Shown piece after piece: positions 20,009 to 36,836 of a stretch of DNA of 39,026 nucleotides (the first letter of the stretch is position 1; each line of letters opens with the position of its first letter). The stretch is taken from positions 1 through 39,026 of the forward strand of contig PSRA01000083.1 in NCBI GenBank assembly GCA_003175695.1, written 5' to 3'. Position numbers and translations under genes: made by a program. The stretch comes from Bacteroidota bacterium. GTDB taxonomy: Bacteria; Bacteroidota; Bacteroidia; Chitinophagales; Chitinophagaceae. The notes below the pieces were generated by a model, which was not told the DNA's origin, did no database searches, and worked only from the letters and a program-made list of their open reading frames with translations.

Positions 20009-20142
20009 ATAAGTCAACTATATCAAAAATTAAATGCCAATGCCTTTCTTTACTATTTCTTGTAGAGTTTTCTCCACGTATGAATTCTTTTTTCTTTTTT
20101 TGACAAAATAAAAATCGGGGTACGCAATTTGTCATATCTATC

Positions 20143-20436
20143 ATGGAATGGCTATGCGAAATAATTAATACAGAGTTTATGAATATCCAGGATTTTAATT
20201 ACCTCGACGGCATTGCAAAAACGGAAGTGTTATCGATAATGGGCGTTTACCTGGCTGAAAGATTTGAAGGGTGTTTTAGAATAACCTTGTACCAGGTGGA
20301 GAATTTTTATGTTGAGATTTATTACCACACAACCCGGTACTTTTATATCTGCATCAGGAGCTTTGAAGACGTTGGTGAGCTATCTCCTTATTTGCAAGAC
20401 GTAGATATTTCGGAGGCTTACAGCGTTTTAGATTGA
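20143..20436 (+). CDS. small hypothetical protein, 97 residues
   Basis: The reading frame opens at ATG 20143, with a second ATG at 20179 (MNIQDFNYLDGIAKTE) that may be the true start. The sequence looks real: alternating beta-like and aromatic-rich residues (FRITLYQVENFYVEIYYHTTRYFYICIRSFEDVGELSPYLQDVDI) on a scaffold with few low-complexity runs. Proteins of this shape are common lineage-specific hypotheticals in Chitinophagaceae. No motif, signal peptide or membrane helix is seen, so it should be cytoplasmic. It stands alone between topoisomerase IB and the DUF3606 gene. Confidence 0.65.
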   Translation: MEWLCEIINTEFMNIQDFNYLDGIAKTEVLSIMGVYLAERFEGCFRITLYQVENFYVEIYYHTTRYFYICIRSFEDVGELSPYLQDVDISEAYSVLD

Positions 20437-20579
20437 TAACCGGGGGAATTCAACTTAGAAACAAATAATTTCAAAAGCGGAAGCTGACACTGCTTATTGA
20501 TTCGCGGAGTAACAAACGATTAACTATACTGGGCAGACTTCGTCACTCAAACCATTAGCATCATATTTTCAATCTGCAC

Positions 20580-20768
20580 CTAGAGAGCGAAACCCCTACT
20601 AATCAACCAATTCCTTATTTTCAGAATGCGATTACTCTTTGTTGCCTGAACCGCAATTAACAATTGATTGGGTGATATTTCCCATCTTTTTGCCCAGTAG
20701 ACGACCTCTTCTACTCGCGTCATATCAAGACGCCTGTTTCTTTCTTGTTTTTCCATTTCTTTTCCCAT
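20580..20768 (-). CDS. DUF3606 domain protein
   Basis: The 62-residue product has the DUF3606 pattern: RRLDMTRVEEVVYWAKRWEISPNQLLIAVQATKSNRI, where the family has a (D)xxEVxYWxKxxGVSxxQLxxAVxxxG core. It is a small helical, basic protein of unknown function. ATG 20768 has AAGG four bases upstream, and a transcript from the promoter at 20790-20805 would start near 20779, leaving an 11-base leader. The next in-frame ATG (20756) is the alternative start. The gene is divergent from the formylglycine-enzyme-like gene and is directly behind a perfect sigma-54 promoter, which is the clearest regulatory assignment in the window. Confidence 0.82.
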   Translation of the reverse strand: MGKEMEKQERNRRLDMTRVEEVVYWAKRWEISPNQLLIAVQATKSNRILKIRNWLISRGFAL

Positions 20769-20789
20769 TCTACCTTTTTAAAATACAAA

Positions 20790-20805
20790 TGCAAGGCCTG
20801 TGCCA
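20790..20805 (-). promoter_or_regulatory. perfect sigma-54 (-24/-12) promoter of the DUF3606 gene
   Basis: Minus-strand TGGCACAGGCCTTGCA matches all 12 defined positions of TGGCAYR-N4-TTGCW with GG and GC ten bases apart. Transcription would begin near 20779, 11 bases before the start codon. rpoN and an NtrC-type activator are encoded 5-9 kb away in the same window. Confidence 0.8.
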
Positions 20806-20883
20806 ATGCGTGTTTGAGTTAAGACTATTTCAGGCACCGGGATTTGATTAATTCGCGTAAATTTATCAGTCAAAAGATTGGTC

Positions 20884-22089
20884 ATGCGGATTCAAGTAAT
20901 TTTTCCTTCAGTTGCCTGTATTTTATTATTTTCCTGCCACAATACGAACAATACAGATTCGGTAAATGATATTTTCAAAGTAAGGGTCGACGGTGCAGTT
21001 TCCTGTACCTCAATAGGTTTGATTCCCGCCGACAGCGTTTTATACATGCATGGCGGAGGCAATGATTTTAAACCAACGATCGCCAATGAAATAAAACCGG
21101 TAGCTGATATTAAAGGAATGGTCTGGATCCCCGGGGGAGAATTCAGTATGGGGGGTGTCAATCCGGTAGGCATGCAGGACGGCGGTAATCAAGCCATGAA
21201 TGATGCCAGGCCAGTTCATCGGGTTTATGTCGATGGTTTTTTCATGGATGAATCTGAAGTGACCAATGCAGAATTTGCTGCATTTGTAAATGCCACAGGT
21301 TATATAACGGTAGCGGAAAGAAAACCTACAAAAGCCGAATTCCCTGATGCGCCGGAAGAAAACCTGGTTGCAGGTTCTGTTGTCTTCACACCGGCAGTTG
21401 TAACAGATTTAAGCAATCATTATCGCTGGTGGAATTATGTCAAGGGTGCCAGTTGGAAGCATCCGACAGGACCCGATAGTGATCTGAAAGGAAAAGAGAA
21501 TTATCCCGTCGTCCAGATCTCTTGGGAAGATGCGGTTGCATATGCCCGTTGGGCCGGGAAGCGATTGCCAACGGAAGCCGAATGGGAATTTGCAGCACGT
21601 GGCGGCAAAGCAGGTGAACTTTACCCATGGGGTAATCAGTTCAAACCTAACGACCGTTATATGGCAAATATTTACCAGGGCCAGTTTCCTTCACATGATG
21701 AAGGCAGTGATGGCTTTCCTGGTATAGCTCCAGTCAAACAATTTCCGGCAAATCCATACGGATTGTATGACATGGCCGGCAATGTTTGGGAATGGTGCAG
21801 TGACTGGTACCGTCCCGACTATTATGCAAGACTCGCTGCTTGGGGACTTTCAAAAAATCCAAAAGGGCCCGATGCATCGTTCGACCCGGCAGAACCCGGA
21901 CAAAAAAAGAAAATACAGCGCGGAGGTTCATTCCTTTGCACCGATCAATATTGTACAAGGTATATGGTAGGAACCCGTGGCAAGGGAGAATACCGCTCGG
22001 CTTCCAACCACGTGGGATTCCGATGTGTCAAGGATATTGTCAAGAAGGAACTTGCCTCCAAGCAAAACACGAATCACCACGGCAGTTAA
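20884..22089 (+). CDS. formylglycine-generating-enzyme family lipoprotein
   Basis: Start at ATG 20884; TTG six bases earlier is less likely. Residues 1-18 are a lipoprotein signal with lipobox LLFSC. The FGE-sulfatase (SUMF1) domain spans about 75-390: GMVWIPGGEFSMGG, HRVYVDGFFMDESEVTNAEFAAFV, YPVVQISWEDAVAYARWAGKRLPTEAEWEFAARGG, GLYDMAGNVWEWCSDWY and GGSFLCTDQYCTRYMVGTRG...NHVGFRCV. The two Cys in CTDQYC occupy the spacing of the copper-binding catalytic pair of true formylglycine-generating enzymes, which many relatives lack. A real enzyme would turn a sulfatase Cys into formylglycine in the envelope. No sulfatase is in the window, so the partner is unknown. Confidence 0.9.
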   Translation: MRIQVIFPSVACILLFSCHNTNNTDSVNDIFKVRVDGAVSCTSIGLIPADSVLYMHGGGNDFKPTIANEIKPVADIKGMVWIPGGEFSMGGVNPVGMQDGGNQAMNDARPVHRVYVDGFFMDESEVTNAEFAAFVNATGYITVAERKPTKAEFPDAPEENLVAGSVVFTPAVVTDLSNHYRWWNYVKGASWKHPTGPDSDLKGKENYPVVQISWEDAVAYARWAGKRLPTEAEWEFAARGGKAGELYPWGNQFKPNDRYMANIYQGQFPSHDEGSDGFPGIAPVKQFPANPYGLYDMAGNVWEWCSDWYRPDYYARLAAWGLSKNPKGPDASFDPAEPGQKKKIQRGGSFLCTDQYCTRYMVGTRGKGEYRSASNHVGFRCVKDIVKKELASKQNTNHHGS

Positions 22090-22254
22090 CAGTTAAATTC
22101 ATCAATAATATCTGATCCTTCCCTGTCTACAGATAAATTAAATAATTTGTCTAAGGAAATGTATGTCGAAAGCTGTGATGGCTAGATCTGTTTGTCCAAA
22201 TTAATCCTGCTCTTGAAATAATCAAACCTTGTATCAATTACCTAAAGAATTGCT

Positions 22255-23049
22255 ATGAAAAATGAGATCAACTTAAAGCTTTCGGGAGGCAAAATGCTTT
22301 CCCTTAGATCAGCTTTTCTTATTCTGGTATTGTTGGTTTCTTGTCTTTTCACGACGGCTCAAATGAAAGATACGACTGGCAGGAACCGAAAGAATGTGAT
22401 CAGGTATGATCTTTCGGGAGGATTGTTATTTGGTATTGACAAGTATATTGTTTTCGGCTATGAGCGCGTAGTGGGGAAGCATCAAAGTTTTTCAATCAAT
22501 ATTGGCAGGGTAGCTCTTCCTAAATTCATCTCTGTCATCACAGACAGTTTCAATTTAACCCAGAATTCAAAAAGCAATGGCTTTAACATTTCTGCTGATT
22601 ACAGATTTTACTTGGCAAGTGAAAATAAGTTTGCGCCACCTCATGGCTTATATATAGGACCTTATTTTTCATTTAACGAGTTTGATCGCGACAACGAATG
22701 GGATTCCAGAAACTCTAATTCAAGCACCTTTATTAAAACCCATAGTAAGTTGACCATTCCAGCTTTCGGTGCTGAATTAGGGTACCAGTTTGTTTTATGG
22801 AAAAGGGTTGCATTGGATTTGATGATGCTGGGGCCTGGACTTGCTTCATATAAATATGCGGTGACTTTTGATGAGAATATTGATGAAGCTAAGAAACAAC
22901 AAATCCTGGACGCATTAAAGCAAGTGATCTCTCAGAAATTTCCAGGGCTGAACTATGTTTTTTCCAACCAGGAATTTAAGGCTAACGGTGTGATACGAAC
23001 CTGGAGTCTCGGATATAGATTTATTATTCATATCGGATTTGTGTTCTAG
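22255..23049 (+). CDS. secreted outer-membrane beta-barrel-like protein
   Basis: The 264-residue product has a signal peptide ending near CLFTTAQ. The start may be ATG 22255 or the later ATG 22294 (MLSLRSAFLILVLLVSCLF), which gives a more standard signal peptide. The mature part alternates hydrophobic and polar residues in strand-like blocks (YDLSGGLLFGIDKYIVFGYERVVG, HQSFSINIGRVAL, GFNISADYRFYL, LYIGPYFSFNEF, AFGAELGYQFVLWKRVALDLMM) and ends in an aromatic residue (IIHIGFVF), as outer-membrane barrels do. It resembles DUF3575-type proteins, but this is a pattern match only. Nothing nearby indicates a substrate. Confidence 0.7.
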   Translation: MKNEINLKLSGGKMLSLRSAFLILVLLVSCLFTTAQMKDTTGRNRKNVIRYDLSGGLLFGIDKYIVFGYERVVGKHQSFSINIGRVALPKFISVITDSFNLTQNSKSNGFNISADYRFYLASENKFAPPHGLYIGPYFSFNEFDRDNEWDSRNSNSSTFIKTHSKLTIPAFGAELGYQFVLWKRVALDLMMLGPGLASYKYAVTFDENIDEAKKQQILDALKQVISQKFPGLNYVFSNQEFKANGVIRTWSLGYRFIIHIGFVF

Positions 23050-23146
23050 CCGGAAGTGAACTGAGGTCAATGGTCAGGACTAGATACACACAGAGACTTT
23101 TGACTCCCAATCCTGAGTTTCGACTTTTTGTAGTAACTTATCGCGG

Positions 23147-24730
23147 ATGTTTCTTTATCATAGAAAGTCGATTTTAATTTGCGTTTTTTTTGTTACCAGC
23201 TTTTTTCTTTCGCAATTTTTTGTTGCCTGTAAAAATAGAAATGAGGAAGCTTTAGACGATTATGGAGCCAGGGGAAAGTTATTAGCTCACCAATACTGTC
23301 AAAGTTGTCATTTGTTTCCGGAACCCGACCTGGCCAACAAGAAATCCTGGACAGATGGAATCTTGCCACAAATGGGGCCTCGACTTGGAATATTCAGGTA
23401 CAATGCCGTCAATTATCCATCGAGTCGTTATGATATTAACATAATCGGAAAAAATTACTATCCAACTCATCCGCTAATGAGTGATGAGGATTGGGGAGCG
23501 ATATTAACTTATTACGCTGAAGCGGCTCCCGATTCTCTTCCTTCTCAAAAAAGGGATGAGCCGATTTCCCCGAATACACCACTTTTTCAACCGATCGTGC
23601 CTGCCGTAAAGTATCCTAATCCTGTCACCACATTCCTTTCCGTCGATACTTCGGATTTGCCTCACCGTTTATTGCAATCAGATGGACTAAAGCATGCCTT
23701 GTATATGTACGACAGTCAGCTGAATTTGTCCGACTCCACTTCTTTTTATGGTACGCTGCTGGATGTGATTGTGAAAAAGGATACTATGCTATTTTGTAAT
23801 GTGGGGATCATTAATCCAAATGACGGAAGATTCGGTACTGTTGAAGTTATTGCGACCAATAAGAAAAATGAAAATCTGAAAATAACATCCCGGGGTTCTG
23901 CTCCGAGGATTGCTGATAGTCTTAGACGTCCGGTTCAAATCACGGAAGCCGACCTGAATGGTGATGGTCGGAAAGACTTAATTGTTTGTGAATTTGGCAA
24001 CTTGTTAGGTAGCTTGACCTGGTATGAGAACGAAGGAGGCACAACATACAAACGGCATGTATTACGCGCACAACCTGGAGCGATCAACGCTATTGTTCAG
24101 GATTATAATCATGATGGATTACCTGATATCTGGGCCCTCTTCTCACAGGGAGATGAAAGTATCGTATTATTTACTAACAAAGGAAACGGCGTTTTCGATC
24201 AGGAGCAGGTATTGCGCTTTCCTTCCATCTACGGATCTTCTCATTTTGAGTTAAATGATTTTAATGGGGATGGATTTCCGGACATTTTGTATAGCTGTGG
24301 TGATAATGCAGACTATTCGCAAATATTAAAGCCCTATCATGGCGTTTATATCTTTTTGAATGATGGCAAGCAACATTTTACGCAAAAATTCTTTTACCCT
24401 ATCCATGGCTGTTATAAGGCCGTTGCCAGGGATTTTGATGGAGACGGTGACCTGGATATAGCCACGATTTCATTTTTTGCCGACTATGCCCGCGATCCGT
24501 CAGAAGGATTTGTTTACCTGGAGAACAAGGGTAACTGGAAATTTGCACCTTCCACCTTGCCAGAAGCGGAAAGTGGCAGATGGCTCACTATGGCCGTTGG
24601 AGACCTGGATGGAGATGGGAAAGATGACATCATTCTGGGTAATTTTTCTGTTGGTCCCACGCCGCTGAAATCCAGGTCAAATTGGAAGGAAGGGCCGCCC
24701 TTTCTATTCTTGAAAAATAAAGGGAAATAG
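23147..24730 (+). CDS. FG-GAP/VCBS-repeat lipoprotein with a haem c motif
   Basis: The 527-residue protein starts with a lipoprotein signal (lipobox FFVAC at about 24-28). Residues 45-125 look like a small cytochrome c: CQSCH haem motif with a possible axial Met in LPQMGPRLG. From about 190 on, FG-GAP/VCBS repeats with DxDGDGxxD calcium-type motifs follow: EADLNGDGRKDLIV, DYNHDGLPDIW, DFNGDGFPDILYS, DFDGDGDLDIATI and DLDGDGKDDIILG. It should form a surface or periplasmic beta-propeller carrying one haem. Similar domain fusions occur in Bacteroidota and Planctomycetes; their electron partner and substrate are not known. It is convergent with the dehydrogenase gene, ten bases away. Confidence 0.88.
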   Translation: MFLYHRKSILICVFFVTSFFLSQFFVACKNRNEEALDDYGARGKLLAHQYCQSCHLFPEPDLANKKSWTDGILPQMGPRLGIFRYNAVNYPSSRYDINIIGKNYYPTHPLMSDEDWGAILTYYAEAAPDSLPSQKRDEPISPNTPLFQPIVPAVKYPNPVTTFLSVDTSDLPHRLLQSDGLKHALYMYDSQLNLSDSTSFYGTLLDVIVKKDTMLFCNVGIINPNDGRFGTVEVIATNKKNENLKITSRGSAPRIADSLRRPVQITEADLNGDGRKDLIVCEFGNLLGSLTWYENEGGTTYKRHVLRAQPGAINAIVQDYNHDGLPDIWALFSQGDESIVLFTNKGNGVFDQEQVLRFPSIYGSSHFELNDFNGDGFPDILYSCGDNADYSQILKPYHGVYIFLNDGKQHFTQKFFYPIHGCYKAVARDFDGDGDLDIATISFFADYARDPSEGFVYLENKGNWKFAPSTLPEAESGRWLTMAVGDLDGDGKDDIILGNFSVGPTPLKSRSNWKEGPPFLFLKNKGK

Positions 24731-24740
24731 CTGTTTGGGT

Positions 24741-25757
24741 TCAATCAAATTCGACTACAGCCTTGAGCACCCCCAACTCAGGCTTGTTCAAATCCGGAAA
24801 AATATCTTTCAATTTCGCAAATGGAATGCGATGAGTGATGAATGAATTGGGACTAACGAGTTTTTGTCGAATGCATTGTATGACCCAACTAAAATCCTCC
24901 CTGGTCGCGTTTCGGCTACTCATGAGCGTTGCTTCCCGCTTGTGAAATTCGGGATGACTGAAACTTATCTTTTCCTTTTGAAGTCCCACCAATACGAATC
25001 TGCCTCCAAATGCGATATACGGAAACAACGATTCAATGGCTTTGAGGTTGCCTGTTGCATCCATGATAACCTGGGGCATCGATCCGCCGGTCCATTCCCT
25101 AAGTTGTTCAAAAGAGTCGCGTGATCTGCTGTCTAGTAAATATTTTAAGTTTAAAATAGACTTTGCAAGCCTGAGTCTTGCTGCATTTACATCCATGAGG
25201 ATAACCTGCGCCCCGGCTATTTGCGCGAACGCTGCAGTAGCCATTCCGATTGGACCCGCACCAGCAATCAAAACAAATTCTCCTCTTTTAATCCCTGCTC
25301 TTCGAATGGCGTGGGCGCCGATGGAGAGTGGTTCAACCAATGCCAACTCGTCCATAGTTAAACCTTCAGCCTTTATGAGTGAATTAATTGGGACCTGGAA
25401 AAAATCCCGCATGCCGCCATCCACATGAACGCCACAGACTTGCAATTTTTCGCAACAATTTTCTTTTCCTGATAGGCAGGGCAGGCAAGAGCCGCAATTA
25501 AAATAGGGAAGTATAGTAACGGACTCGTTGTCGTCATATCCTGGGATATCCTGATTGCTGACAAGTACTCCCGCAAGCTCATGGCCGAGTATCCTTGGAT
25601 ATTCAAAAAAAGGTTGGGTTCCTTCGAAAGCATGTAGATCTGTGCCACAGATTCCGACGCGGCTCATTTGCAAGAGTGCCATATCGCGCTTTGGAACTGG
25701 CATATCTGCAGATATAAATTCAAATTGTCGTGGTGACCGGCAAACAAGGATATTCAT
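24741..25757 (-). CDS. zinc-dependent alcohol dehydrogenase family protein
   Basis: The 338-residue medium-chain dehydrogenase has catalytic-zinc ligand Cys37 in VGICGTDLHAF, GHE at about 58-60, the structural-zinc Cys cluster CGSCLPCLSGKENCC (about 88-102), EPLSIGAHAIRR, and the nucleotide-binding GAGPIGMATAAFAQIAGA with Asp in LMDVN for NAD preference. The overall sequence resembles sugar-acid dehydrogenases such as L-galactonate or L-gulonate 5-dehydrogenases and threonine-dehydrogenase-like enzymes, but substrate cannot be fixed from sequence. It is divergent from the acyl carrier protein gene; the 158-base gap holds a sigma-54-like promoter reading the other way. Confidence 0.92.
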   Translation of the reverse strand: MNILVCRSPRQFEFISADMPVPKRDMALLQMSRVGICGTDLHAFEGTQPFFEYPRILGHELAGVLVSNQDIPGYDDNESVTILPYFNCGSCLPCLSGKENCCEKLQVCGVHVDGGMRDFFQVPINSLIKAEGLTMDELALVEPLSIGAHAIRRAGIKRGEFVLIAGAGPIGMATAAFAQIAGAQVILMDVNAARLRLAKSILNLKYLLDSRSRDSFEQLREWTGGSMPQVIMDATGNLKAIESLFPYIAFGGRFVLVGLQKEKISFSHPEFHKREATLMSSRNATREDFSWVIQCIRQKLVSPNSFITHRIPFAKLKDIFPDLNKPELGVLKAVVEFD

Positions 25758-25795
25758 ACGTTAAATTTTACATTATTTTTTGATTGCAAAAAATT

Positions 25796-25811
25796 TGGCA
25801 TTCAAATCGCT
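25796..25811 (+). promoter_or_regulatory. sigma-54-like promoter for the acyl carrier protein gene
   Basis: TGGCATTCAAATCGCT has GG-N10-GC spacing and matches 10 of 12 consensus positions, the same two deviations as the site ahead of ku (6262-6277). Predicted start near 25822, giving a leader of about 94 bases. Confidence 0.5.
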
Positions 25812-25861
25812 GGATTCAGGCTTTATTATTTTGATGATATGGTGAGAAATAAGGAGTTTGA

Positions 25862-25882
25862 CTGCGTACTTTCTGTGCGCAG
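25862..25882 (+). promoter_or_regulatory. leader hairpin upstream of the acyl carrier protein gene
   Basis: CTGCGTAC (25862-25869) can pair with GTGCGCAG (25875-25882), with one T-G pair and a five-base loop, 33 bases before the start codon. The 8-mer GTGCGCAG also occurs at 26235-26242, about 50 bases upstream of the promoter at 26290. Function is unknown; it may be an mRNA stem or part of an activator site. Confidence 0.3.
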
Positions 25883-25915
25883 AATTCGTTTTAGAAATCT
25901 AGAAAATCCGAACTT

Positions 25916-26155
25916 ATGATAGCAATTGGTTCTGCAGAAAAGATTAAATCTATCGTCGCTGCCAAGTTGGGTCTTGAAGAAAACAATATCCGTCCGGACA
26001 CGACCTTTCACAAGGATCTGGGCATAGATTCTCTGGACCTGGTGGAAGTGATTTGGGAGGTTGAAAAGAAGTTTAAAGTAACGATTCCAGACGAGGAATT
26101 AGAGCGTTTGCACACGATTGGCGATCTGGCCGATTTCGTTGATCAAAGAATATAA
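25916..26155 (+). CDS. acyl carrier protein
   Basis: The 79-residue protein is a complete ACP: helix 1 (SAEKIKSIVAAKLGLEENNI), then FHKDLGIDSLDLVEVIWEVEKKF, with the phosphopantetheine-accepting Ser39 in DSLDLVE, then IPDEELERLHTIGDLADFVDQ. ACPs carry acyl chains as thioesters for fatty-acid, lipid or secondary-metabolite synthases. There are no fatty-acid synthesis genes beside it, so it looks like an extra copy rather than the housekeeping one that normally sits by fabF. A sigma-54-like promoter precedes it, and it is followed by a non-coding stretch with a second, perfect sigma-54 promoter. Confidence 0.92.
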   Translation: MIAIGSAEKIKSIVAAKLGLEENNIRPDTTFHKDLGIDSLDLVEVIWEVEKKFKVTIPDEELERLHTIGDLADFVDQRI

Positions 26156-26289
26156 CCGGACTTGGTTTCTTAAAAGATTGGAATTCAATAAGAAATGCAA
26201 TTCATGCTGCTAGTTCGCTGGCAATCAGCCACCCGTGCGCAGCGAATAAAGTGCTAAGATTTTATCAGTAAGGCTTTTTTTTGTTCTAC

Positions 26290-26305
26290 TGGCATGTGAA
26301 TTGCA
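26290..26305 (+). promoter_or_regulatory. perfect sigma-54 (-24/-12) promoter with no gene behind it
   Basis: TGGCATGTGAATTGCA matches all 12 defined positions of TGGCAYR-N4-TTGCW with correct spacing. Transcription would start near 26316 on the plus strand. The only downstream element before the convergent hydrolase gene is an intrinsic terminator at 26366-26393. Confidence 0.8.
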
Positions 26306-26315
26306 GCTATTAAAG

Positions 26316-26393
26316 TGGACATGGACGGTTTTTTTAGAAATTACATGTCAATAAAAATCAATATGCCCCGGAGTCTCTACTTCGGGGTTTTTT
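26316..26393 (+). ncRNA. predicted sigma-54-dependent small RNA, about 78 nt
   Basis: Bounded by a perfect sigma-54 promoter (start near 26316) and a terminator hairpin with six T residues (to 26393). The stretch has no convincing gene: the only reading frame, ATG 26321, runs straight through the terminator and stops after it, so it is unlikely to be translated as such. Other sigma-54-driven small RNAs are known in bacteria (for example GlmY/GlmZ in Enterobacteriaceae), but I see no similarity of sequence. It lies downstream of the acyl carrier protein gene and runs convergently into the 3' end of the hydrolase gene at 26400. This is a prediction from position alone and awaits expression evidence. 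Confidence 0.6.
26366..26393 (+). terminator. intrinsic terminator of the predicted small RNA
   Basis: CCCCGGA and TTCGGGG (seven pairs, one G-U) flank an eight-base loop and are followed by six T residues (26388-26393). It is seven bases from the stop codon of the convergent hydrolase gene. It may also end the acyl carrier protein transcript, for which no other terminator is seen. Confidence 0.8.
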
Positions 26394-26399
26394 CATGAG

Positions 26400-27434
26400 C
26401 TATAAGTTCCACCATTCTTTTTGTGGAATGGGTCCCTGCAAATAAAATGGTTCACCAATCATAGGCGTAGCTACCTGAAGACCACAGGGACCAGCTTTGA
26501 TTAAAACCCGCTTAATGGGTTCATCCCAGGGATGGAGCGAGAGACTGAACTTACCCCAGTGCACCGGCAACAAAACTTTCGCATTAAGATCCATGGCCGC
26601 CTGCACCGTCTCCTCTGGCATCATATGAATCTGAGGCCAGGACTGATTGTACTGGCCCGATTCCAGGATCGCTAGATCCATGGATCCAAATTTCTCTCCG
26701 ATTGCTCTGAAATGGCTATCATATCCGCTATCGCCACCAATATAAATTTTGATGGCATCTTTTTTCAGAACAAATGAAGACCACAATGTTTTGTTTCTGT
26801 CAAAAGTCCTTCCTGAGAAATGGCGCGCAGGCGCTGCCGATAATTCAAGGTCTTGATTTATTTGAATCGATTCCCACCAATCCAGCTCTTGGATGAATTT
26901 CTTTTCCAGACCCCAATATGCCAAGTGAGAACTCACACCCAGCGAAGTGCAAATTTTTTTAATAGAAGGTTTCAATGCCACGATTGTTCTGTAGTCAAGA
27001 TGGTCGTAATGATCGTGCGTGAGGATAAGTAGATCGATATCGGGCATATCACCCGGGCCATATTTCTCTGTGCCAGGAAAACTTTTTGTCAATAGTGGAA
27101 ACGGCGATGCATATCCGCTAAACACCGGGTCTACCAAGACATTAAATCCATCGAGATGTATTAAATAAGATGAGTGACCGAACCAGCACAAAAAAGATTT
27201 CCCCGGGACCGGATATCTCAGGTCGGTAATGACGGAAGGAATTTCTTTGGGAGGCTTTGTATTCGCAGGTTTATTCATGAAGCGCCACATGATAGTCAGG
27301 AATGACTCATTTCCCGCCATCATGATTGTGTTGGAAAAGTTATGAAATTCACCGTCTTTGTATTGACTTGATTTCTTAAGTTCTTCTAACAATTCTCCGC
27401 TGGGCTTTTTACCGAAGGCTTTCAATAACTGCAT
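26400..27434 (-). CDS. metallo-beta-lactamase-fold hydrolase (NAPE-PLD/UlaG-like)
   Basis: The 344-residue protein keeps the metal-binding motif THDHYDHLD (His140, His142, Asp144, His145), FGHSSYLIHLDGFNVLVDPVFSGYASP before it, a distal His in ARHFSGR, the bridging Asp in YIGGDSGYD and a last His in PVHWGKF. The LVDPVF, WWESI and ARHFSGRTFDRNKTLWSSFVL segments are typical of the N-acyl-phosphatidylethanolamine phospholipase D-like group, which in bacteria is largely uncharacterised. The substrate may be a lipid or a phosphodiester, but that is inference. No signal peptide is seen. It is convergent with the predicted small RNA. Confidence 0.9.
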   Translation of the reverse strand: MQLLKAFGKKPSGELLEELKKSSQYKDGEFHNFSNTIMMAGNESFLTIMWRFMNKPANTKPPKEIPSVITDLRYPVPGKSFLCWFGHSSYLIHLDGFNVLVDPVFSGYASPFPLLTKSFPGTEKYGPGDMPDIDLLILTHDHYDHLDYRTIVALKPSIKKICTSLGVSSHLAYWGLEKKFIQELDWWESIQINQDLELSAAPARHFSGRTFDRNKTLWSSFVLKKDAIKIYIGGDSGYDSHFRAIGEKFGSMDLAILESGQYNQSWPQIHMMPEETVQAAMDLNAKVLLPVHWGKFSLSLHPWDEPIKRVLIKAGPCGLQVATPMIGEPFYLQGPIPQKEWWNL

Positions 27435-27546
27435 AAAACTTCCTCGATTTTTTTGGTTGCCGATGTTTTGTAGATAACCATCTGTCGTCTCATTTAGAAA
27501 ACCATCAAAAACTTCGACCGGTATGGAAATGCAGGAGATCTCAAGT

Positions 27547-28056
27547 TTATTGTATTAACGCCGAATATATTGACCCCCGTCGATAAATAGATGGGACTGA
27601 ACTTAATTTCCTAACAGTCATGTACCCCGCTTTTTCAAATATTTTCTTTAGCGATTCAAACGATACCGGGAAAGGCACCCACCGGTTTGCCTCATCCGTA
27701 TCGTATTCTACCATGATCCAAACCCCATTTTTATTCAGCATCCTGCTTATATTTCGGACGAATAAAATTTTGTCTTTTACAAAATGAATTGAATTTGCCA
27801 TTAAAATTCCATCTATGGTCGTGAATGGCAGCGGCGACTCGACGAAATCCATCTGAACATTTTCAATTTGGACACCGTTCATAGACTCTATATGAGGTTT
27901 ATGCTTATCTATAGCATAAATCGTTGAACCGTTCGATAGTCTGCTAGCCAGAGCGCGGGTAAACAAGCCAGCACCACAACCCAGGTCAGCCCATTTCTTG
28001 TGAGTTGCAAGATCTAATCCTGTTTCAATTAGTGCTAAGGCGTCAGATAGTTTCAT
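27547..28056 (-). CDS. class I SAM-dependent methyltransferase
   Basis: The 169-residue protein has the methyltransferase core: motif I WADLGCGAGLFTRALA (about 22-37), the acidic end of strand 2 in IYAIDKHKPHI, motif II-like VQMDFVESPLPFTTIDGILMANSIHFV and the post-core LNKNGVWIMVEYD. It is short, missing the extended C-terminal parts of many relatives, but complete in frame. The N terminus starts straight at the helix before motif I. The substrate is unknown. It is 211 bases downstream of the EXPERA-like gene on the same strand and 112 bases upstream of the hydrolase gene. Confidence 0.88.
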   Translation of the reverse strand: MKLSDALALIETGLDLATHKKWADLGCGAGLFTRALASRLSNGSTIYAIDKHKPHIESMNGVQIENVQMDFVESPLPFTTIDGILMANSIHFVKDKILFVRNISRMLNKNGVWIMVEYDTDEANRWVPFPVSFESLKKIFEKAGYMTVRKLSSVPSIYRRGSIYSALIQ

Positions 28057-28267
28057 TGATTAGCTGAATGATTCTGAGCATAGGATAGGATAAATTATGC
28101 ATAACACGTGTTTTTCTATATTGTTTCGGATTAAATGATCAATTCTCGCCGTCTTTTCACGGCGGACTGCATTAGAATAAATGGCAGACCCTGTCCTACA
28201 CGGGTTTAAATTTTATAGATTTTCCCAATGCCAGTGGTCCATATTTGTTCTGAAAGTCGACATGCAG

Positions 28268-28792
28268 TTAATTTGATCGATGAGCCGGACTTGCAAATGG
28301 ATATATAGATCGCCACATCCTATACAGGACTATGCATGGAAAGATTATCCAGGCCGAATTTGCCAGGAATACACGAAATAATGCAGGCGATGCATGTTCG
28401 CCCCTGACTTCTTCAAATAGAATGATCGTAACGTTCGTCAACATCACTGAAGCCCAAACAATGCTCCCAAATCTGATCCAGTTTTTCCCTTTCAGGTAGG
28501 CATATATCGCAAACACATAGAAGGGACCAAAAAAAATGGCGTCAATCCATATTGTCGCCCTCCACCAGGCGGGCCTCGTTATTAATAGCGGATCGAAATT
28601 TCGCCCGTACCAGTGAACGAGATCGACCATTTTAGCGGGAGGCCATTGGGGGTAAGCAAAATGATTGGCATCTGAAATGACCAGTTGCTCTAAATCCACG
28701 ATATATGTGACAAAGAATAGATTGATAATGAAAAAAATGATCACTGCAATATCCACAGGGCGTTTAGCAAGCGGAAGAGAAGGAGGCGGCAT
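28268..28792 (-). CDS. EXPERA-like four-helix membrane protein
   Basis: The 174-residue protein has four hydrophobic segments (about 12-30, 82-102, 108-128 and 140-160). Their order and the motifs between them resemble the EXPERA domain of sterol isomerase EBP and TMEM97: a first helix followed by VDLEQLV, a periplasmic loop with YPQWPPAKMVDLVHWYGRNFDPLL and PAWWRATIWIDAIFFGPFYVFAIYAYLKGKNWIR, and an acidic residue in the third helix region (ILFEEVRGEH). Family membership is by pattern only. In eukaryotes the fold serves sterol isomerisation or lipid binding; bacterial members have no known role. Confidence 0.65.
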   Translation of the reverse strand: MPPPSLPLAKRPVDIAVIIFFIINLFFVTYIVDLEQLVISDANHFAYPQWPPAKMVDLVHWYGRNFDPLLITRPAWWRATIWIDAIFFGPFYVFAIYAYLKGKNWIRFGSIVWASVMLTNVTIILFEEVRGEHASPALFRVFLANSAWIIFPCIVLYRMWRSIYPFASPAHRSN

Positions 28793-29209
28793 ATTTAAAA
28801 TTCGGTGCCTTAAAATACTTAAAATGTATGAATTTCAAATTGATGTTTAGAGCCACGGGTTCGAAAATAAGAAAAGGGCGGCTTTGCAACCTGGCAATAA
28901 GAATTTGCCTCATTTTTTCAAATAAATCACAGCCCCTGGTTATGCAAAATCAGAGGACCGATTCATCCGGTAACAGTGCGGGTCAAACGAAAATTATTCA
29001 TGTGGTATTTAGTATACTATTAAAGTGTGGCCGGAATTTAAGTTACTCAAAGCTCCCGGGCAATTATTGAGGTCGCGATAAGCCCGAAAATAGTCGTTTT
29101 TGCACCCCAATTGAATATTTAGTTGGCAGTAATTTTGTTATCAACAATAGGGTTCGCATTCAAAGAACTATTCATTCCAAATCTTTTTATCAAATTAAAC
29201 TTTATTAAA
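28793..29209. other. intergenic stretch between EXPERA-like and VOC genes
   Basis: About 417 bases between divergent genes, with no credible gene; a frame at 28828-29070 has a composition unlike its neighbours. The only feature is the candidate promoter at 29111-29137 for the VOC gene. Confidence 0.45.
29111..29137 (+). promoter_or_regulatory. candidate housekeeping promoter of the VOC gene
   Basis: TTG (29111-29113), 16 bases, then TAATTTTG (29130-29137), a full match to the -7 consensus TAnnTTTG with a slightly short spacer. It is 73 bases before the ATG. A TGGCA string here (29124-29128) also gives a poor sigma-54 match (GG-N10-GT). Confidence 0.4.
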
Positions 29210-29635
29210 ATGGCAACGATCAATCCTTATCTGAATTTTCCGGGCAATACTGAACAGGCCTTCAATTTTTACAAAACCATTTTTGGTGGCGATTTTGCTG
29301 CCATCCAGAGATTCAAAGACACGGAATTTGGAAAAAACTTAACTCCTGCCGAGCAGGAAAAAATAATGCATGTCTCTCTGCCAATTGGTAAGAATGTTTT
29401 GATGGGAACCGATGCGTTGGAATCGATGGGCCACAAAGTAAATGCCGGGGACAATTTTTCAATTACTGTGGGTCCTGAAAGCCTGGACGAGGCGCATCGT
29501 GTTTTTGATGGACTTTCCAAAGGCGGGAGAGTGATTTCTCCATTGAAAAAAGAATTTTGGGGTGATTATTTTGGTCAGTTGGTGGATCCATTTGGTATCC
29601 AGTGGATGATTAATTATCACGAAGAGCAGAAGTGA
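29210..29635 (+). CDS. VOC-family (PhnB-like) protein
   Basis: I start at ATG 29210 (MATINPYLNFPGNTEQAFNFYKTIFGG), which is the standard start of PhnB-like proteins; the upstream in-frame extension is unlike the family. The 141-residue product is one VOC domain of paired beta-alpha-beta-beta-beta modules, with FFNGNTEQAF-type opening, GTDALESMGH in the middle and GGRVISPLKKEFWGDYFGQLVDPFGIQWMINY at the end, the usual FWG...G.x.DPFG.W pattern. Members of this family bind a metal, but no substrate is known for PhnB-like ones. It is often found beside YCII proteins and ECF42 sigma factors, as here. Confidence 0.88.
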   Translation: MATINPYLNFPGNTEQAFNFYKTIFGGDFAAIQRFKDTEFGKNLTPAEQEKIMHVSLPIGKNVLMGTDALESMGHKVNAGDNFSITVGPESLDEAHRVFDGLSKGGRVISPLKKEFWGDYFGQLVDPFGIQWMINYHEEQK

Positions 29636-29671
29636 TTTGTCTTTGCTTTTGGGAGAAAATACCGGCAATAT

Positions 29672-29698
29672 TGTCCGGTTTCAATTGAAGCTTGTGTC
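29672..29698 (+). promoter_or_regulatory. ECF-type promoter candidate (TGTCC-N18-TGTC) before the DUF899 gene
   Basis: TGTCC at 29672-29676 and TGTC at 29695-29698 are 23 bases apart start to start, ending 21 bases before the ATG at 29720. The same pair at the same spacing lies ahead of the second YCII gene (33868-33894). As recalled, ECF42 sigma factors of Streptomyces use a TGTC-starting -35 and a CGTC/CGAC-like -10, which this resembles. Confidence 0.45.
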
Positions 29699-29719
29699 TT
29701 TCCTATATAATTAACTATT

Positions 29720-30541
29720 ATGGAAATCTCATCAAATCCTCCGAAAAATGGGTTGCTACAGCACCATCCGGTTGTAACGACACAGGAATGGCTTGAAAAG
29801 AGAAAAGAGCTTCTTATAAAAGAAAAAGAGCTCACCCGTCTACAGGACGCCATTGCCGCAAAAAGGAGAGAGTTGCCCTGGATCAGAATTGAAAAGAATT
29901 ATGTCTTTGATGCACCAGAAGGGAAAATGACATTCTCCGAACTATTCAAGGGCCGCAGTCAATTGATCGTTCAACACTTTATGTTTGGTCCAGGCTGGCA
30001 GGAAGGTTGTCCAGGCTGCTCTTTCAGTGCAGATCATGTAGATAGTGCATTCATGCACCTCGTGCATAATGATGTGAGCTTTGTCGCAATTTCCAGGGCT
30101 CCTCTCTCCGAGTTATTGCCTTTCAAAGAGAGAATGGGCTGGAAGTTTGATTGGGTATCCTCAAATGAGAACGAATTCAATTTTGATTTCAATGTTTCAT
30201 TTTCGCCTGAACAAAAAGAAAAGGGTTTCGTCTATTATAATTATGACAATCAACCATTCGAAAGTGATGAGCTTCCGGGTCATAGTGTCTTTTACAAGAA
30301 TGAAGAAGGAGAAATCTTTCACACTTACTCAGCATTTGCCCGTGGAGCTGAGCATCTGTCATCTGCCTTTAGTTTTTTGGATATGACGCCAAAAGGCAGA
30401 AATGAAAAAGGTCCATATTTTAACCTGATGGATTGGGTAAGGCACCATGACAAATATCCTTCTAACACTTCGGATCAACCAAAAGGGAAATCATCCGCGC
30501 AGGCTGGAACCTGCTGCGGCGCGGAGGGCCATTCAAAATGA
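29720..30541 (+). CDS. DUF899 thioredoxin-like protein
   Basis: The 273-residue product is a DUF899 protein: WLEKRKELLIKEKELTRLQDAIAAKRRELPW near the start, then a thioredoxin-like half with FSELFKGRSQLIVQHFMFGPGWQEGCPGCSFSADHVD (CxxC at 97-100) and FVAISRAPLSELLPFKERMGWKFDWVSS, and YFNLMDW near the end. The Cys pair is placed like the active site of peroxiredoxin-like folds. The extra tail is Cys- and Ser-rich (AGTCCGAEGHSK) and overlaps the next gene, whose ATG lies in the stop (ATGA at 30538-30541). The family is uncharacterised and often lies in ECF42/YCII clusters. Confidence 0.9.
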   Translation: MEISSNPPKNGLLQHHPVVTTQEWLEKRKELLIKEKELTRLQDAIAAKRRELPWIRIEKNYVFDAPEGKMTFSELFKGRSQLIVQHFMFGPGWQEGCPGCSFSADHVDSAFMHLVHNDVSFVAISRAPLSELLPFKERMGWKFDWVSSNENEFNFDFNVSFSPEQKEKGFVYYNYDNQPFESDELPGHSVFYKNEEGEIFHTYSAFARGAEHLSSAFSFLDMTPKGRNEKGPYFNLMDWVRHHDKYPSNTSDQPKGKSSAQAGTCCGAEGHSK

Positions 30542-30903
30542 AAAATTGCTCATGCCATATTAATAATGCGGTTGAGCCTGGTCGTAATACAGAAAGGACT
30601 CAACCAATTAATGATCAGGAGAAACGAAGAGGAACCTTCCGTTGGCGGTTTATGTTAAAGTCAGTTGCACCGGGTGCGGCATTTGTTTTCATCCCAAAAT
30701 GTCCGCTTTGCCTGGTAGCGTATATTTCGTTGATTTCGGGAGTTACCGTCTCGTCTACAACGGCCGGCTTTTTGCGATATTTCATGATTTTGCTTTGTCT
30801 TGGATCTTTTGTTTATTTTGTATATAGGGCGTTTTTTAATGGAAAATGGATATGGAAGAAAAGGATTGGATTCAAAAGACTCTTAATAAAAACCAGGTTT
30901 TGA
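30538..30903 (+). CDS. two-helix membrane protein with CxxC motif
   Basis: The 121-residue product begins MKNCSCHINN, with Cys4 and Cys6, is polar to about residue 37, then has two membrane helices (about 38-68 and 75-98). The first carries Cys55 and Cys58 in FIPKCPLCLVAYISL, a CxxC placed inside or at the edge of the membrane. The FIPKCPLCLVAY block recalls small membrane proteins I have seen in other Bacteroidota, function unknown. Its start overlaps the DUF899 stop by four bases. Pairing of a thioredoxin-like CxxC protein with a membrane CxxC protein suggests a thiol relay or metal handling; that is inference. Confidence 0.75.
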   Translation: MKNCSCHINNAVEPGRNTERTQPINDQEKRRGTFRWRFMLKSVAPGAAFVFIPKCPLCLVAYISLISGVTVSSTTAGFLRYFMILLCLGSFVYFVYRAFFNGKWIWKKRIGFKRLLIKTRF

Positions 30904-32068
30904 ACAGGGCAAAACATAAACGTTGCAGGTTGTCAGTCTTTGTGTCGATTTTTATTGGCATAGTAATTTGCTTTCAACTATTCTCACCTGTCTATAGTCA
31001 AATTCCAAAGAGCGCCTCTGAAGGGATCGTTACTGAAAGCCTTGAATCTGCGGGTATTGATTCCACACTCTTGGATAAGATGACTGCTGCGATTGAATCA
31101 AACGAATATCCAAATATTCACAGCGTACTCATCCTGTCAAACGGGAAACTTGTGTATGAACATTATTTTCCTGGCAAGGACGAAATTTGGGGTCATCCCA
31201 TTGGGATTGTAAATCATGATCGCGATAGTTTGCATGATATGCGAAGTGCTTCAAAAAGTGTTGTTTCGGCTTGCATTGGCATTGCGATAGGCAAAGGACT
31301 GATCAGGAATGAAAATGAAAATATCTGGAAATTCTTTCCGGAGTACGCAGATCTGGATTCAGGTGACAAAGCAAAACTAACATTGAAGGATCTACTCACC
31401 ATGTCGAGTGGATTGGACTGGGATGAGAGTATTTCATACAATGACCCGACAAATAGCGAAATTCAAATGGATTACAGCATTGATCCAATCCGTTATGTTC
31501 TTAGCAGGCCTCTTGCTCATCCAATTGGAGCTGTATGGAATTACAATGGTGGTGGGACTGAGGTGCTTGCTGCCGTAATTCATAAAGTGGACTTTATATT
31601 GATGCTTTTGCAGAGCAATATCTGTTCAAGCCAGTTGGAATTGCACATTACTATTGGACGAAACTGCCATCCAAAGGCCCCAATAAACAGATACCTGCGG
31701 CTGCCTCAGGGTTGAGACTTCGCTCAAGGGACCTCATGAAATTTGGAATGCTTTATATGAACGGCGGAAAATGGGAAGGAAATCAAATTATACAGGCTAA
31801 CTGGGTTTCGGCTTCGCATCAATCATACATCAATCGGAACAAACCTGACCAGGGATATGGCTATCAATTTTGGACATGGGACGATAAAGTTGGACCGCGA
31901 GCTATACACCTTGTCGCAGCGGTCGGCAATGGTGATCAACGGATATTTTTTGATCATGCAAATCAATTGATGGTCGTGACTACTGCAGGTAATTACAACC
32001 AATGGACAATCAAGAATAATACCAGGGCATTGTTGATGAATTTTATTTATCCTGCATTTCTTCACTAG
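30846..32068 (+). pseudogene. serine hydrolase (beta-lactamase-like) broken by a frameshift
   Basis: The first part reads in one frame from ATG 30846 to about 31588: a signal peptide (RLSVFVSIFIGIVICFQLFSPVYSQ), YEHYFPGKDEIW, the catalytic SxxK in RSASKSVVSACIG and the second motif region WNYNGGGTEVLAAVIHKV. It then shifts: from 31589 the next frame continues without break (GLYIDAFAEQYLFKPVGIAHYYW, then LRLRSRDLMKFGMLYMNGGKW, YGYQFWTWDD and HLVAAVGNGDQRIFF) to a stop at 32066-32068. One base (or four) is missing near 31587-31591. An in-frame TTG at 30900 overlaps the upstream TGA (TTGA), so it may be the true start. A sequencing error cannot be excluded; with it repaired the gene is a full class C/EstB-like enzyme. 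Confidence 0.85.
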
Positions 32069-32109
32069 CACCTGGAGGAAATTGAAACTTATTTTACAAA
32101 CCTATAACA

Positions 32110-32463
32110 ATGGAAAAATTCTTATTAATAGTTCGGGAAGAAATGGAGATCCTCAGCAAGTTAACCGAAGAGCAACGACTAGAAGGTATAAGAGACATGA
32201 CCAAATGGGTAGAGGAGTTGACTCTGACAGGGAATTATATCATGGGCGAACCCTTGACGACAGCAGGTACCTATGTCAGCAAGGATAAAGTTTTGACGGA
32301 TGGACCTTTTATAGAAGCCAAGGAAGCTGTGAGTGGTTTTATGATGATAAATGCAGAAAACCTTAACCAGGCCATTTCCATTGCGCAAAATTGTCCGAAA
32401 GTCTTGAACGGTGATCTGACACTTGAGGTGAGACCCATATTAGTGTACAACATCAATGTCTAA
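32110..32463 (+). CDS. YCII/DGPF-domain protein (first copy)
   Basis: The 117-residue product has the YCII-related DGPF pattern: MEKFLLIVREEMEILSKLTEEQRLEGIRDMTKWVEELTLTGNYIMGEPLTTAGTYV, then LTDGPFIEAKEAVSGFMMINAENLNQAISIAQNCP and LEVRPI. The family is small, dimeric and of unknown function. The DGPF in VLTDGPF is intact. It overlaps the following ECF sigma-factor gene by eight bases, an arrangement typical of ECF42 sigma factors, whose neighbour is a DGPF protein. The gene sits 41 bases behind the serine hydrolase and probably belongs to the DUF899 operon. Confidence 0.92.
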   Translation: MEKFLLIVREEMEILSKLTEEQRLEGIRDMTKWVEELTLTGNYIMGEPLTTAGTYVSKDKVLTDGPFIEAKEAVSGFMMINAENLNQAISIAQNCPKVLNGDLTLEVRPILVYNINV

Positions 32464-33754
32464 CGTCGACAACAAGACCGTAAATCAACAAATAGATCAA
32501 TTGTATCGTAGCCATTTTGGTAAAATGGTGGCGTGGCTACTTTATTTTTCCAAAGATATTCAGTTGGAAAGAGCGGAGGACATCGTGCAGGACGCATTTG
32601 CCTCCTCATTGATTGCCTGGCAAAAGGACGGCATGCCGCAAAATCCTCCAGGATGGATATTCAAAGTGTGCAGGAATAAGGCAATTAACCAGATTAGGGA
32701 TAAAAAAAAGATTCTTCATACTAACGGTCAGATACACGATCCTTTTGTAGATTATGAAATCTCCGAAACAATTCTTGATGATCAGCAGTTACAATTGTTA
32801 TTTGCCTGTGCGCATCCTGATCTCTCACCCAAAGCACAGGTTGTCATAACACTGAAATATATTGCAAGCCTGAAAGTAGAAGCCATCGCAAACGTGCTTG
32901 GCATGACCATCGACGGGGTCGATAAATTGCTGTCAAGGTCCAGACAGAAAATCAGGGAAGAAAGAATCATGCTTGAATTGCCATCCAAATCCAAACTCGG
33001 CGAAAGATTACCCATCGTCCATAAAATCATATATCTGATCTTCAATGAAGGATATAAATCATCATCCGGAAAAGAATTGTTGAGAGAAGAACTCTGTGAA
33101 GATGCTTTACTGTTGACAAAGGAATTGATAGATAAGAACCTTGGCAACAATGAAACGCTGGCGCTTTATTCCTTAATGCTTTTCAACGCAGCAAGATTTA
33201 AAGCGCGATTCGGTCCTGCAGGAGAAATAAAGGATTTGGAAGAACAAGACCGCTCTCAATGGGACAAGAAATTAATTCTGATGGGATGTCATTACCTCGA
33301 GCGATCGAAGGGCGAGGTTATATCTAGTTTTCACTATGAGGCTACTATTGCCTATTTCCATAGTCGCGAGACCCATTTCCGCGATACCAATTGGCAAGCC
33401 ATTACACAGCTCTATCTGCAACTAATGCAAATTAATGCCAGCCCTTTCATTGAGCTGAACTATGCGATTGCGCTTTATTATGCCGGTCAAAAGCCACAGG
33501 CTATTCAGAAATTACATGAGCTTGAACAAAGAGCGTTGCTGAATCAATATTATCTATTAAACGCAAGCCTGGGAAAAATATATTTCAACGAAGGAAATCT
33601 TGATCGGGCAAAAAGTTATTACCTAAAAACATTACACCAAACCAACTTTCAGGTTGAGAAGGACTATATCAGCAAAATGATCGATAAAATCGAGGCCAGG
33701 CAGAACGGAACGCAAAGAAAGAGTGGAGAAACTGAGTGGAGAACAACGGGTTAG
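32456..33754 (+). CDS. ECF42-type RNA polymerase sigma factor
   Basis: The 432-residue factor has sigma region 2 (LYRSHFGKMVAWLLYFSKDIQLERAEDIVQDAFASSLIAW, then PPGWIFKVCRNKAINQIRDKKK) and region 4 (LSPKAQVVITLKYIASLKVEAIANVLGMTIDGVDKLLSRSRQKIRE), then about 240 extra residues with helical TPR-like repeats (LGERLPIVHKIIYLIFNEGYKSSSGKELLREELCEDALLL, NYAIALYYAGQKPQAIQKLHELEQ, ASLGKIYFNEGNLDRAKSYYLKTL). This long tail and the DGPF protein beside it mark the ECF42 group. No anti-sigma factor is adjacent, as expected; the tail is thought to control activity. The last dozen residues are low-complexity and run into a repeat region, so the native end may be shorter. Confidence 0.92.
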   Translation: MSNVDNKTVNQQIDQLYRSHFGKMVAWLLYFSKDIQLERAEDIVQDAFASSLIAWQKDGMPQNPPGWIFKVCRNKAINQIRDKKKILHTNGQIHDPFVDYEISETILDDQQLQLLFACAHPDLSPKAQVVITLKYIASLKVEAIANVLGMTIDGVDKLLSRSRQKIREERIMLELPSKSKLGERLPIVHKIIYLIFNEGYKSSSGKELLREELCEDALLLTKELIDKNLGNNETLALYSLMLFNAARFKARFGPAGEIKDLEEQDRSQWDKKLILMGCHYLERSKGEVISSFHYEATIAYFHSRETHFRDTNWQAITQLYLQLMQINASPFIELNYAIALYYAGQKPQAIQKLHELEQRALLNQYYLLNASLGKIYFNEGNLDRAKSYYLKTLHQTNFQVEKDYISKMIDKIEARQNGTQRKSGETEWRTTG

Positions 33755-33787
33755 GCGCCCTCTGCACTGTTTCTCCGCTCTTTCTCT
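33714..33787. repeat. 19-base inverted repeat across the sigma-factor stop codon
   Basis: Arms at 33714-33732 and 33769-33787 pair at 17 of 19 positions with a 36-base loop that holds the TAG stop. The left arm also has a tandem copy (GAGTGGAGAAAC at 33721-33732, GAGTGGAGAAC at 33734-33744). No T tract follows. It may be a mobile or repetitive fragment that has altered the end of the gene, or an mRNA stem. Confidence 0.55.
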
Positions 33788-33867
33788 GTTATTGGCTAGT
33801 TTTGGGATGCCGGATGGCCCGTTTCGTCTCCTCCTTTCTGGATCCCCAAAAAATAATTTCGTACCCA

Positions 33868-33894
33868 TGTCCCTATTGGTCTTTTTCATTTGTC
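33868..33894 (+). promoter_or_regulatory. ECF-type promoter candidate (TGTCC-N18-TGTC) before the second YCII gene
   Basis: TGTCC at 33868-33872 and TGTC at 33891-33894, identical in spacing to the pair ahead of the DUF899 gene. It ends 43 bases before the ATG at 33938. Confidence 0.45.
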
Positions 33895-33937
33895 ATTCTC
33901 TCAACAATGCATTTTAGTCACTTCTAAAAATAATCAT

Positions 33938-34315
33938 ATGAAAGAATACATGCTTTTAATCCGCAACAATGCGGACATTAAAGACCAAATGACGCCAGAT
34001 CAGCAAAGGGAATTTTTGAATGAGTGTATGGTTTATATCGAAAAATTGAAAAAAAATGGCAATTTAAAAAGTGCACAGCCTCTGGTGAGAGAAGGTGTCA
34101 TGGTTTCCGGTACGCCGGAAGCATGGAAAGACGGACCTTATACCGAAACCAAGGAAGTCATCGTTGGCTATTATCATATTTTAGCGAAAGACCTCAAGGA
34201 TGCCATTTCTATAGCCAAGGGAAATCCGGAATTTGCTTATACAAAAACAGCCAAGGTGGAAGTGCGCCCCATCAAAATGGTTGAGGAAGCTACCGCGTAT
34301 ACCTACCCGAAGTAA
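33938..34315 (+). CDS. YCII/DGPF-domain protein (second copy)
   Basis: I use ATG 33938 (MKEYMLLIRNNADIK), the usual start of the family; the upstream extension is spurious. The 125-residue product shows FLNECMVYIEKLKKNGNLKSAQPLVREGVMVSG, then WKDGPYTETKEVIVGYYHILAKDLKDAISIAKGNPEFA and VEVRPI. The motif reads DGPY in place of DGPF. It differs clearly from the first copy (32110-32463), so it is an old paralogue, not a recent duplicate. It lies behind its own ECF-like promoter, so it is probably a second target of the ECF42 factor. Confidence 0.9.
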   Translation: MKEYMLLIRNNADIKDQMTPDQQREFLNECMVYIEKLKKNGNLKSAQPLVREGVMVSGTPEAWKDGPYTETKEVIVGYYHILAKDLKDAISIAKGNPEFAYTKTAKVEVRPIKMVEEATAYTYPK

Positions 34316-36829: not shown

Positions 36830-36836
36830 TATTTAA

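Follow-up and report, generated by a model that had tools for sequence, protein, structure and literature searches.

The stretch of DNA analysed here, referred to as the window (39,026 nucleotides from a Bacteroidota bacterium of the Chitinophagaceae), contains a complete sigma-54 promoter motif that is followed by an intrinsic terminator and by no gene. The question raised by this locus is whether these two elements delimit a small RNA gene or have come together by chance. To our knowledge, little work has been done in Bacteroidota on either regulatory RNAs or sigma-54 regulons. The unit is probably a genuine sigma-54 small RNA specific to its lineage, with chances put at about even because it is known from a single sequence for which no relatives were found. 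Judged by other families, it is very likely that the sigma-54 small-RNA plan is real in this order.

Sigma-54 promoters follow the degenerate -24/-12 consensus TGGCAYR-N4-TTGCW. The element TGGCATGTGAATTGCA at 26290-26305 of the forward strand matches this form, searched as TGGCAYRNNNNTTGCW, with 0 mismatches, and it deviates from the strict form TGGCACG-N4-TTGCA by one T for C, which bears out the complete consensus reported in the first-pass annotation. Two exact sites are present in the window versus 0.03 expected under a base-composition model (P ~0.0005), and at up to two mismatches there is no enrichment (19 sites found versus 21.6 expected). The second full site, TGGCACAGGCCTTGCA (20790-20805, reverse strand), precedes a small DUF3606-like gene (20580-20768, reverse strand; PF12244, E 5e-5, 23.5 bits, just below the 24.3 cut-off). 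Upstream of the promoter, a 7-bp inverted repeat read from the sequence, TTCGCTG-N19-CAGCGAA (26214-26246, forward strand, centre near -86), is a possible activator site, the alternative being chance. TAnnTTTG, given as the house-keeping promoter box in PMC9723704, is absent from 26151-26400 on both strands and from 25758-25916 on the forward strand.

In the whole assembly (4.58 Mb, 78.8% complete), the exact consensus occurs at 6 sites versus 3.7 expected from base composition and 2 in a reversed-pattern control, so the number of sites alone is weak evidence. Five of the six are non-coding (P ~0.0002 at a non-coding share of 12.5%, estimated from the genes accepted in the window; L004 is taken as non-coding with its start read as a downstream ATG, though a longer TTG frame covers the site). 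Four of these five precede ORFs, namely those of a GRVDKK-family protein (L002), a polysaccharide-deacetylase-like protein (L003) and a LolA-like protein (L004), the latter two named by eye, and of the DUF3606-like protein in the window (L005, the site at 20790-20805); the remaining one is the site at 26290-26305. The sixth (L007) lies inside a gene. With up to one mismatch, 136 sites were found in this genome versus 61 in the control. Across the 33 genomes of the genus there is no excess of the exact consensus (87 sites versus 93 in the control), and 39 of 89 exact sites, in loci mostly from the genus and a few from outside such as L072, lie outside frames of 130 aa. Nevertheless, certain gene families, assigned by eye, are found repeatedly behind like promoters: the GRVDKK family in 6 genomes including the own one (L002, L138, L147, L230, L246, L264), LolA-like proteins in 4, again including the own one (L004, L140, L145, L160), and a 105-aa family in 3 other genomes (L135, L136, L248). 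The DUF3606 promoter is retained in the relative G006 along with the neighbouring topoisomerase IB gene. Since the sites are mostly non-coding and recur in relatives ahead of the same families of genes, the -24/-12 motif is very likely in use in this genome.

Concerning the transcript itself, the C of the -12 GC is at 26304, and adding 12 places the start near 26316. Together with the terminator this predicts a small RNA of ~78 nt (26316-26393, forward strand), the same figure as had been proposed before. The terminator, GCCCCGGAGTCTCTACTTCGGGGT followed by a T run (26365-26393, forward strand), begins ~50 bases past the predicted start. The hairpin and T run previously noted were confirmed as a strong terminator, although the stem (26365-26388) has 10 pairs rather than seven when a G-U and the closing T-A pair are counted; the T run covers 26388-26393. 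Both for pairs and for G-C pairs it is the strongest of the 24 terminator-like sites in 20000-39026, where shuffled sequences gave 16.0 (sd 4.0). A 5' hairpin, GACAUG...CAUGUC, is predicted from near +3 (26318-26349, forward strand) and is weak evidence, a start stem of this type being present also in 108 of 2000 shuffles. Between both hairpins lies an A-rich linker (26350-26364, forward strand) that is single-stranded in the predicted fold. The fold of 26315-26393 has a z of -3.6, to which the terminator contributes most; the 5' part alone shows a mild signal (z -2.1, with 3.7% of 2000 shuffles equally stable). No match above any family's gathering threshold was obtained with Rfam in the window.

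The statement that no gene stands behind the promoter held when the forward strand was read from the preceding gene to 26399, with no frame of 80 aa and none of 60 aa. There is an open frame of 25 codons, MDGFFRNYMSIKINMPRSLYFGVFS (26321-26398), and a very short protein gene could be proposed on this basis. The only match of the RNA region among 395 other genomes of the order (36 bases in G338, a genome of the same family as the window; E 4e-4, with ~0.2 such matches expected across the sampled genomes) has the first codons of this frame, ATGGACGGTTTTTTTA, and opens a longer one there. However, the frame starts ~5 nt from the 5' end of the predicted RNA, its last codons are the terminator stem, the T run ends before its stop codon (26396-26398), and the two frames diverge after MDGFF, with which the frame in G338 begins. 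The 25-codon peptide was rejected since its frame runs through the terminator to a stop codon beyond the T run, and this explanation is regarded as highly improbable.

The match in G338 (L349:1501-1535) was likewise rejected as a relative of the RNA. Its 18 bases in common with the window RNA, ACATGGACGGTTTTTTTA, directly follow a 502-aa frame and open another frame, and no -24 element is present there. The search in these 395 genomes therefore gave no convincing relative, and neither did a DNA search of 57 near genomes, where the best other match was 24 bases long (E 0.001).

The promoter lies behind an acyl carrier protein (ACP) gene on the same strand (25916-26155, forward; PF00550, E 1.1e-18), and the terminator at 26365-26393 may also end the ACP mRNA. 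The hairpin could thus be simply the ACP terminator, 210 nt past the ACP stop codon, and the sigma-54 match a chance or non-functional one. The ACP gene needs a terminator, and none was found in the scan of 26156-26290. Given the 3.7 exact sites expected per genome and the 2 in the control, a chance site is plausible, and a parallel case occurs in G031, where the site of L185 lies within the end of a frame and is followed by that frame's own terminator; L185 was rejected as a small RNA for this reason. On the other hand, chance would hardly give the non-coding position of five out of six exact sites, and a small RNA fits the spacing, the position of the 5' hairpin near +3 and the gene-free interval. 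In favour of the latter there is a full consensus and the best terminator of the window's right half with no gene between; against it, there is no sequence relative, and the ACP gene makes a terminator expected here anyway. Chance overlap is quite conceivable, and the small RNA, at its even chances, is put somewhat above it.

A related explanation is a 3'-UTR-type RNA, in which sigma-54 would start transcription in the ACP 3' UTR and both transcripts would share the terminator, the RNA being made by its own promoter plus processing and having a role tied to ACP expression. This would fit a promoter that lies on the ACP strand, 134 nt past the stop codon of ACP, with one terminator for both, and also a weaker -24/-12-like site upstream of ACP (25796-25811, forward strand, GG and GC kept). 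However, this site is just 10/12 and may be chance, and within 1 kb behind ACP a 10/12 site was found in 5 of 40 related loci (L195, L207, L208, L210, L312) and a fuller one in none of them, and such an RNA is considered unlikely.

Opposite to the promoter lies a metallo-beta-lactamase-fold hydrolase gene (26400-27434, reverse strand; PF12706, E 1.3e-39), which confirms the convergence on the 3' end of a hydrolase gene that had been described; the earlier label of that gene was NAPE-PLD-like, whereas the Pfam match gives the metallo-beta-lactamase fold. Transcription from the promoter might hinder this gene or destabilise its mRNA, and the convergent orientation would allow it, together with the absence of a reverse-strand terminator-like site for the hydrolase in the scan of 26150-26400. 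Nevertheless, the predicted RNA misses the hydrolase coding sequence because the terminator ends 7 nt short of the hydrolase stop codon, and an antisense or interference element is still less likely than a 3'-UTR-type RNA.

The small-RNA reading needs a sigma-54 factor and an activator, and the first-pass annotation had placed both in the window. They are indeed encoded there, by rpoN (11626-13068, forward strand; PF00309, PF04963, PF04552) and by the gene of an NtrC-type response regulator with receiver, AAA+ and Fis-type HTH domains (13107-14570, forward strand), adjoined by a sensor kinase gene with a receiver domain (14593-16080, forward strand), the latter two identified by domain search. 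Orthologues of this RpoN, 51-77% identical, were found in 21 of the 32 other genus genomes, and a different RpoN, 31-43% identical to it, in 31 of 32, some being fragments in both cases. According to these identities, the window RpoN is the second RpoN type of the genus; only this type was found in the own genome, which is incomplete. The block formed by rpoN, ntrC, the kinase, topoisomerase IB and a 97-aa gene is kept in G015, G008, G003, G018 and G006, and in the first three MlaEFD adjoins it. The shared order stops somewhere in the 20.4-22.1 kb interval of the window, short of the RNA locus. At the end of the window, the neighbouring genes 36837-38042 and 38046-39026 (reverse strand) are apparent near-copies with the same terminator-like hairpins in both.

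Regarding the surroundings of the RNA in relatives, hydrolase orthologues were detected in 20 of the 32 other genus genomes (best 56% identity) and ACP-like proteins in 31 of 32 (best 50% identity), and a hydrolase search among named relatives kept 80 of 592. None of the 145 related loci (105 hydrolase, 40 ACP; flanks up to 1.5 kb or 6 kb) carries both genes, nor does the neighbouring dehydrogenase or methyltransferase appear in any of them. The refuting condition proposed with the first-pass annotation, a loss of promoter and hairpin between retained flanking genes, did not arise in any of these loci. The promoter-plus-terminator pattern gave 109 rows in the genus versus 43 in the control. 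Of 30 contexts inspected (at most one per genome), 23 lie in frames of at least 100 aa, and no clear small RNA was seen among the rest. A separate observation concerns L141 in G019, where a full sigma-54 site (at 1501) stands directly behind a thiolase-like gene, named by eye, with no gene after the site, and a strong hairpin ~99-122 nt after the predicted start is followed by eight T; it is a possible second small-RNA candidate in the genus.

The pattern was also searched in 396 genomes of the order as an exact consensus followed by 50-80 bases, two G/C, N and TTTTT. It was found in 63 rows (55 distinct sites and 8 one-base shifts) from 46 genomes, versus 17 in the control. In the window's own family, f1, there were 12 rows in 10 of 136 genomes versus 3 in the control, which is compatible with chance and so with an ACP terminator that merely follows a fortuitous site. 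Six of the 11 contexts inspected out of these 12 lie in frames, and only the window RNA combines a compact, G+C-rich hairpin with the lack of a gene; L330 (G247), also in f1, has a looser long stem with a response-regulator frame directly behind. In other families, many pattern sites belong to units that hold no gene and have a real terminator at their end. We infer that f1 and f18, the family in which most of what follows was found, are families of the order that holds Chitinophagaceae.

The largest set, family A, has at the predicted start the 5' end GUAAGUUUUGGUUAA(A)AAUUGUAAGAUUCG or a near form. A search with a relaxed sigma-54 element joined to GTTTTGGTTA gave 33 matches in 26 of the 396 order genomes, versus 6 in the control, and none in f1. 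Thirty were inspected, leaving out L346 (the same as L345 over 80 bases), L386 (contig end inside the terminator) and G264:C41, and 27 of them end in a hairpin and T run. L370, L391 and L392, which lack these and look like chance matches, were dropped. All 27 members belong to f18 (family A loci L338, L340, L343, L344, L345, L351, L355, L359, L360, L365, L371, L373, L374, L381, L382, L384, L385, L387, L388, L389, L390, L394, L397, L399). Frames of at least 100 aa overlap four of the 27: by two bases in L399, through an early TTG start with a better start downstream in L344, through a repetitive frame in L340 and through an opposite-strand frame in L360. The RNAs would be ~56-75 nt long, and by eye some lie near genes for an SPCPNDT-motif protein and an alanine-dehydrogenase-like protein.

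Two alignments, A2 (15 sequences) and A3 (9 sequences), cover 24 of the 27 members. The 5' part is nearly invariant, whereas the terminator varies in sequence and keeps its pairing: pairs changed on both sides number 8 of 9 in A2 and 5 of 8 in A3, and an inner terminator pair is broken in at most 4 of the 15 sequences of A2. None of the 6 predicted 5' pairs in A2 is changed on both sides. The conserved GTTTTGGTTA core is given by construction because the alignments were drawn from pattern matches, but the covariation and the remaining conservation of the 5' end are not. When 20 family A loci were compared with Rfam, only tRNAs were found and the small RNAs stayed unmatched. On the level of sequence, then, family A is a conserved sigma-54 small-RNA family with covarying terminators and no Rfam match.

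Moreover, G264 carries three tandem family A copies, and sister copies lie ~70-215 bases upstream in four loci (L384:1681-1745, L373:1390-1455, L355:1780-1844, L385:1327-1395). The sister copies have no -24/-12 element (best 7 or 8/12), and TATATTTG, immediately 5' of their start, is the TAnnTTTG box. As read from these sequences, one RNA type is placed in family A under two kinds of promoter, -24/-12 and TATATTTG.

Two smaller sets follow the plan of family A. Group B (L319, L320/L366, L321) consists of sigma-54 units that carry GTGTGTGTTTTCATGGGGATAGC and a strong terminator but no gene; L320 has two tandem copies and adjoins a guaA-like gene, named by eye. Group C (L356, L357, L358) shows a sigma-54 site, a 5' hairpin, a C-rich linker and a terminator, again without a gene.

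The window RNA resembles family A in its -24/-12 element, predicted start, short length, own terminator and usual lack of a gene, but differs in the conserved 5' end GUAAGUUUUGGUUAA, so that the layout is common and the sequence is not. The family A motif pattern is absent from the own genome (G000), and the family A covariance model R1 matched the window RNA at 26337-26396 with 10.3 bits and E 4.6, the fifth of 8 chance-level matches.

Sigma-54 promoters (SM4) with mapped starts are reported for Flavobacterium psychrophilum in PMC9723704 (2021), chiefly in front of genes for protein quality control, envelope stress and gliding. Among those listed in its Table 2A, again with the start mapped, is the promoter of 'Putative regulatory RNA Rfp36'. 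The first-pass reading of the window unit as a sigma-54 small RNA stands as the best single reading, given the promoter, the terminator and the lack of a gene. Its novelty does not, because this published case contradicts the remark that no sigma-54-driven small RNA had been described in Bacteroidota. By description, Rfp36 is like the window RNA in being a putative regulatory RNA of Bacteroidota with a sigma-54 promoter; its start is mapped whereas that of the window RNA is predicted, and the parts of PMC9723704 consulted give no function for it. Titles and abstract openings of the literature revealed no further case in Bacteroidota, and the main text of PMC12316311, which surveys sigma-54 regulons and touches on chaperones of Bacteroidota, yielded none of the terms sRNA, small RNA and non-coding. 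The recurrence of the layout in the order and the existence of Rfp36 would both count in favour of a small RNA in the window. In other bacteria, Qrr1 of Vibrio (PMC10162802) and CrcZ/CrcY of Pseudomonas (PMC8871633) are small RNAs whose transcription is described as the work of sigma-54 polymerase together with an activator of the enhancer-binding type. The same transcription scheme is proposed for the window RNA, which has no Rfam match and therefore no sign of kinship to them.

If the unit is a small RNA gene, sigma-54 polymerase at 26290-26305 would fire upon activation by the NtrC-type regulator or some other enhancer-binding protein, transcription would start near 26316 and halt at the terminator, and the RNA would base-pair with mRNAs encoded elsewhere. 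It could also pair with the hydrolase mRNA 3' UTR, if that mRNA extends past its stop codon. By analogy with Qrr1 and CrcZ, such a short RNA would act on mRNAs or on a protein. We infer its transcription, length, mode of action and targets; the promoter motif, the terminator, the lack of a gene, the RpoN and activator genes and the -24/-12 sites before other genes are seen directly. A broader proposal, which we regard as tentative and rather doubtful, is that this order routinely uses sigma-54 small RNAs in its regulation, with family A as a widely conserved member and groups B and C and the window RNA as separate, fast-evolving ones, the last being the output of the rpoN2-ntrC-kinase cluster 10 kb away. 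Within that proposal, family A spans many genera of one family, with its tandem copies and its sister copies under a sigma-54 or TAnnTTTG promoter.

If true, the window RNA would tie a regulatory RNA to the sigma-54 regulon in a lineage that is uncultured and carries a second type of RpoN. Family A, with its covariation and no match in Rfam 15, outweighs it in importance and is a clear target for experimental work in cultured relatives. Finally, full sigma-54 sites were also seen in L337 and L367 upstream of a gene that by eye is rpoN-like, and their position suggests self-control of rpoN.
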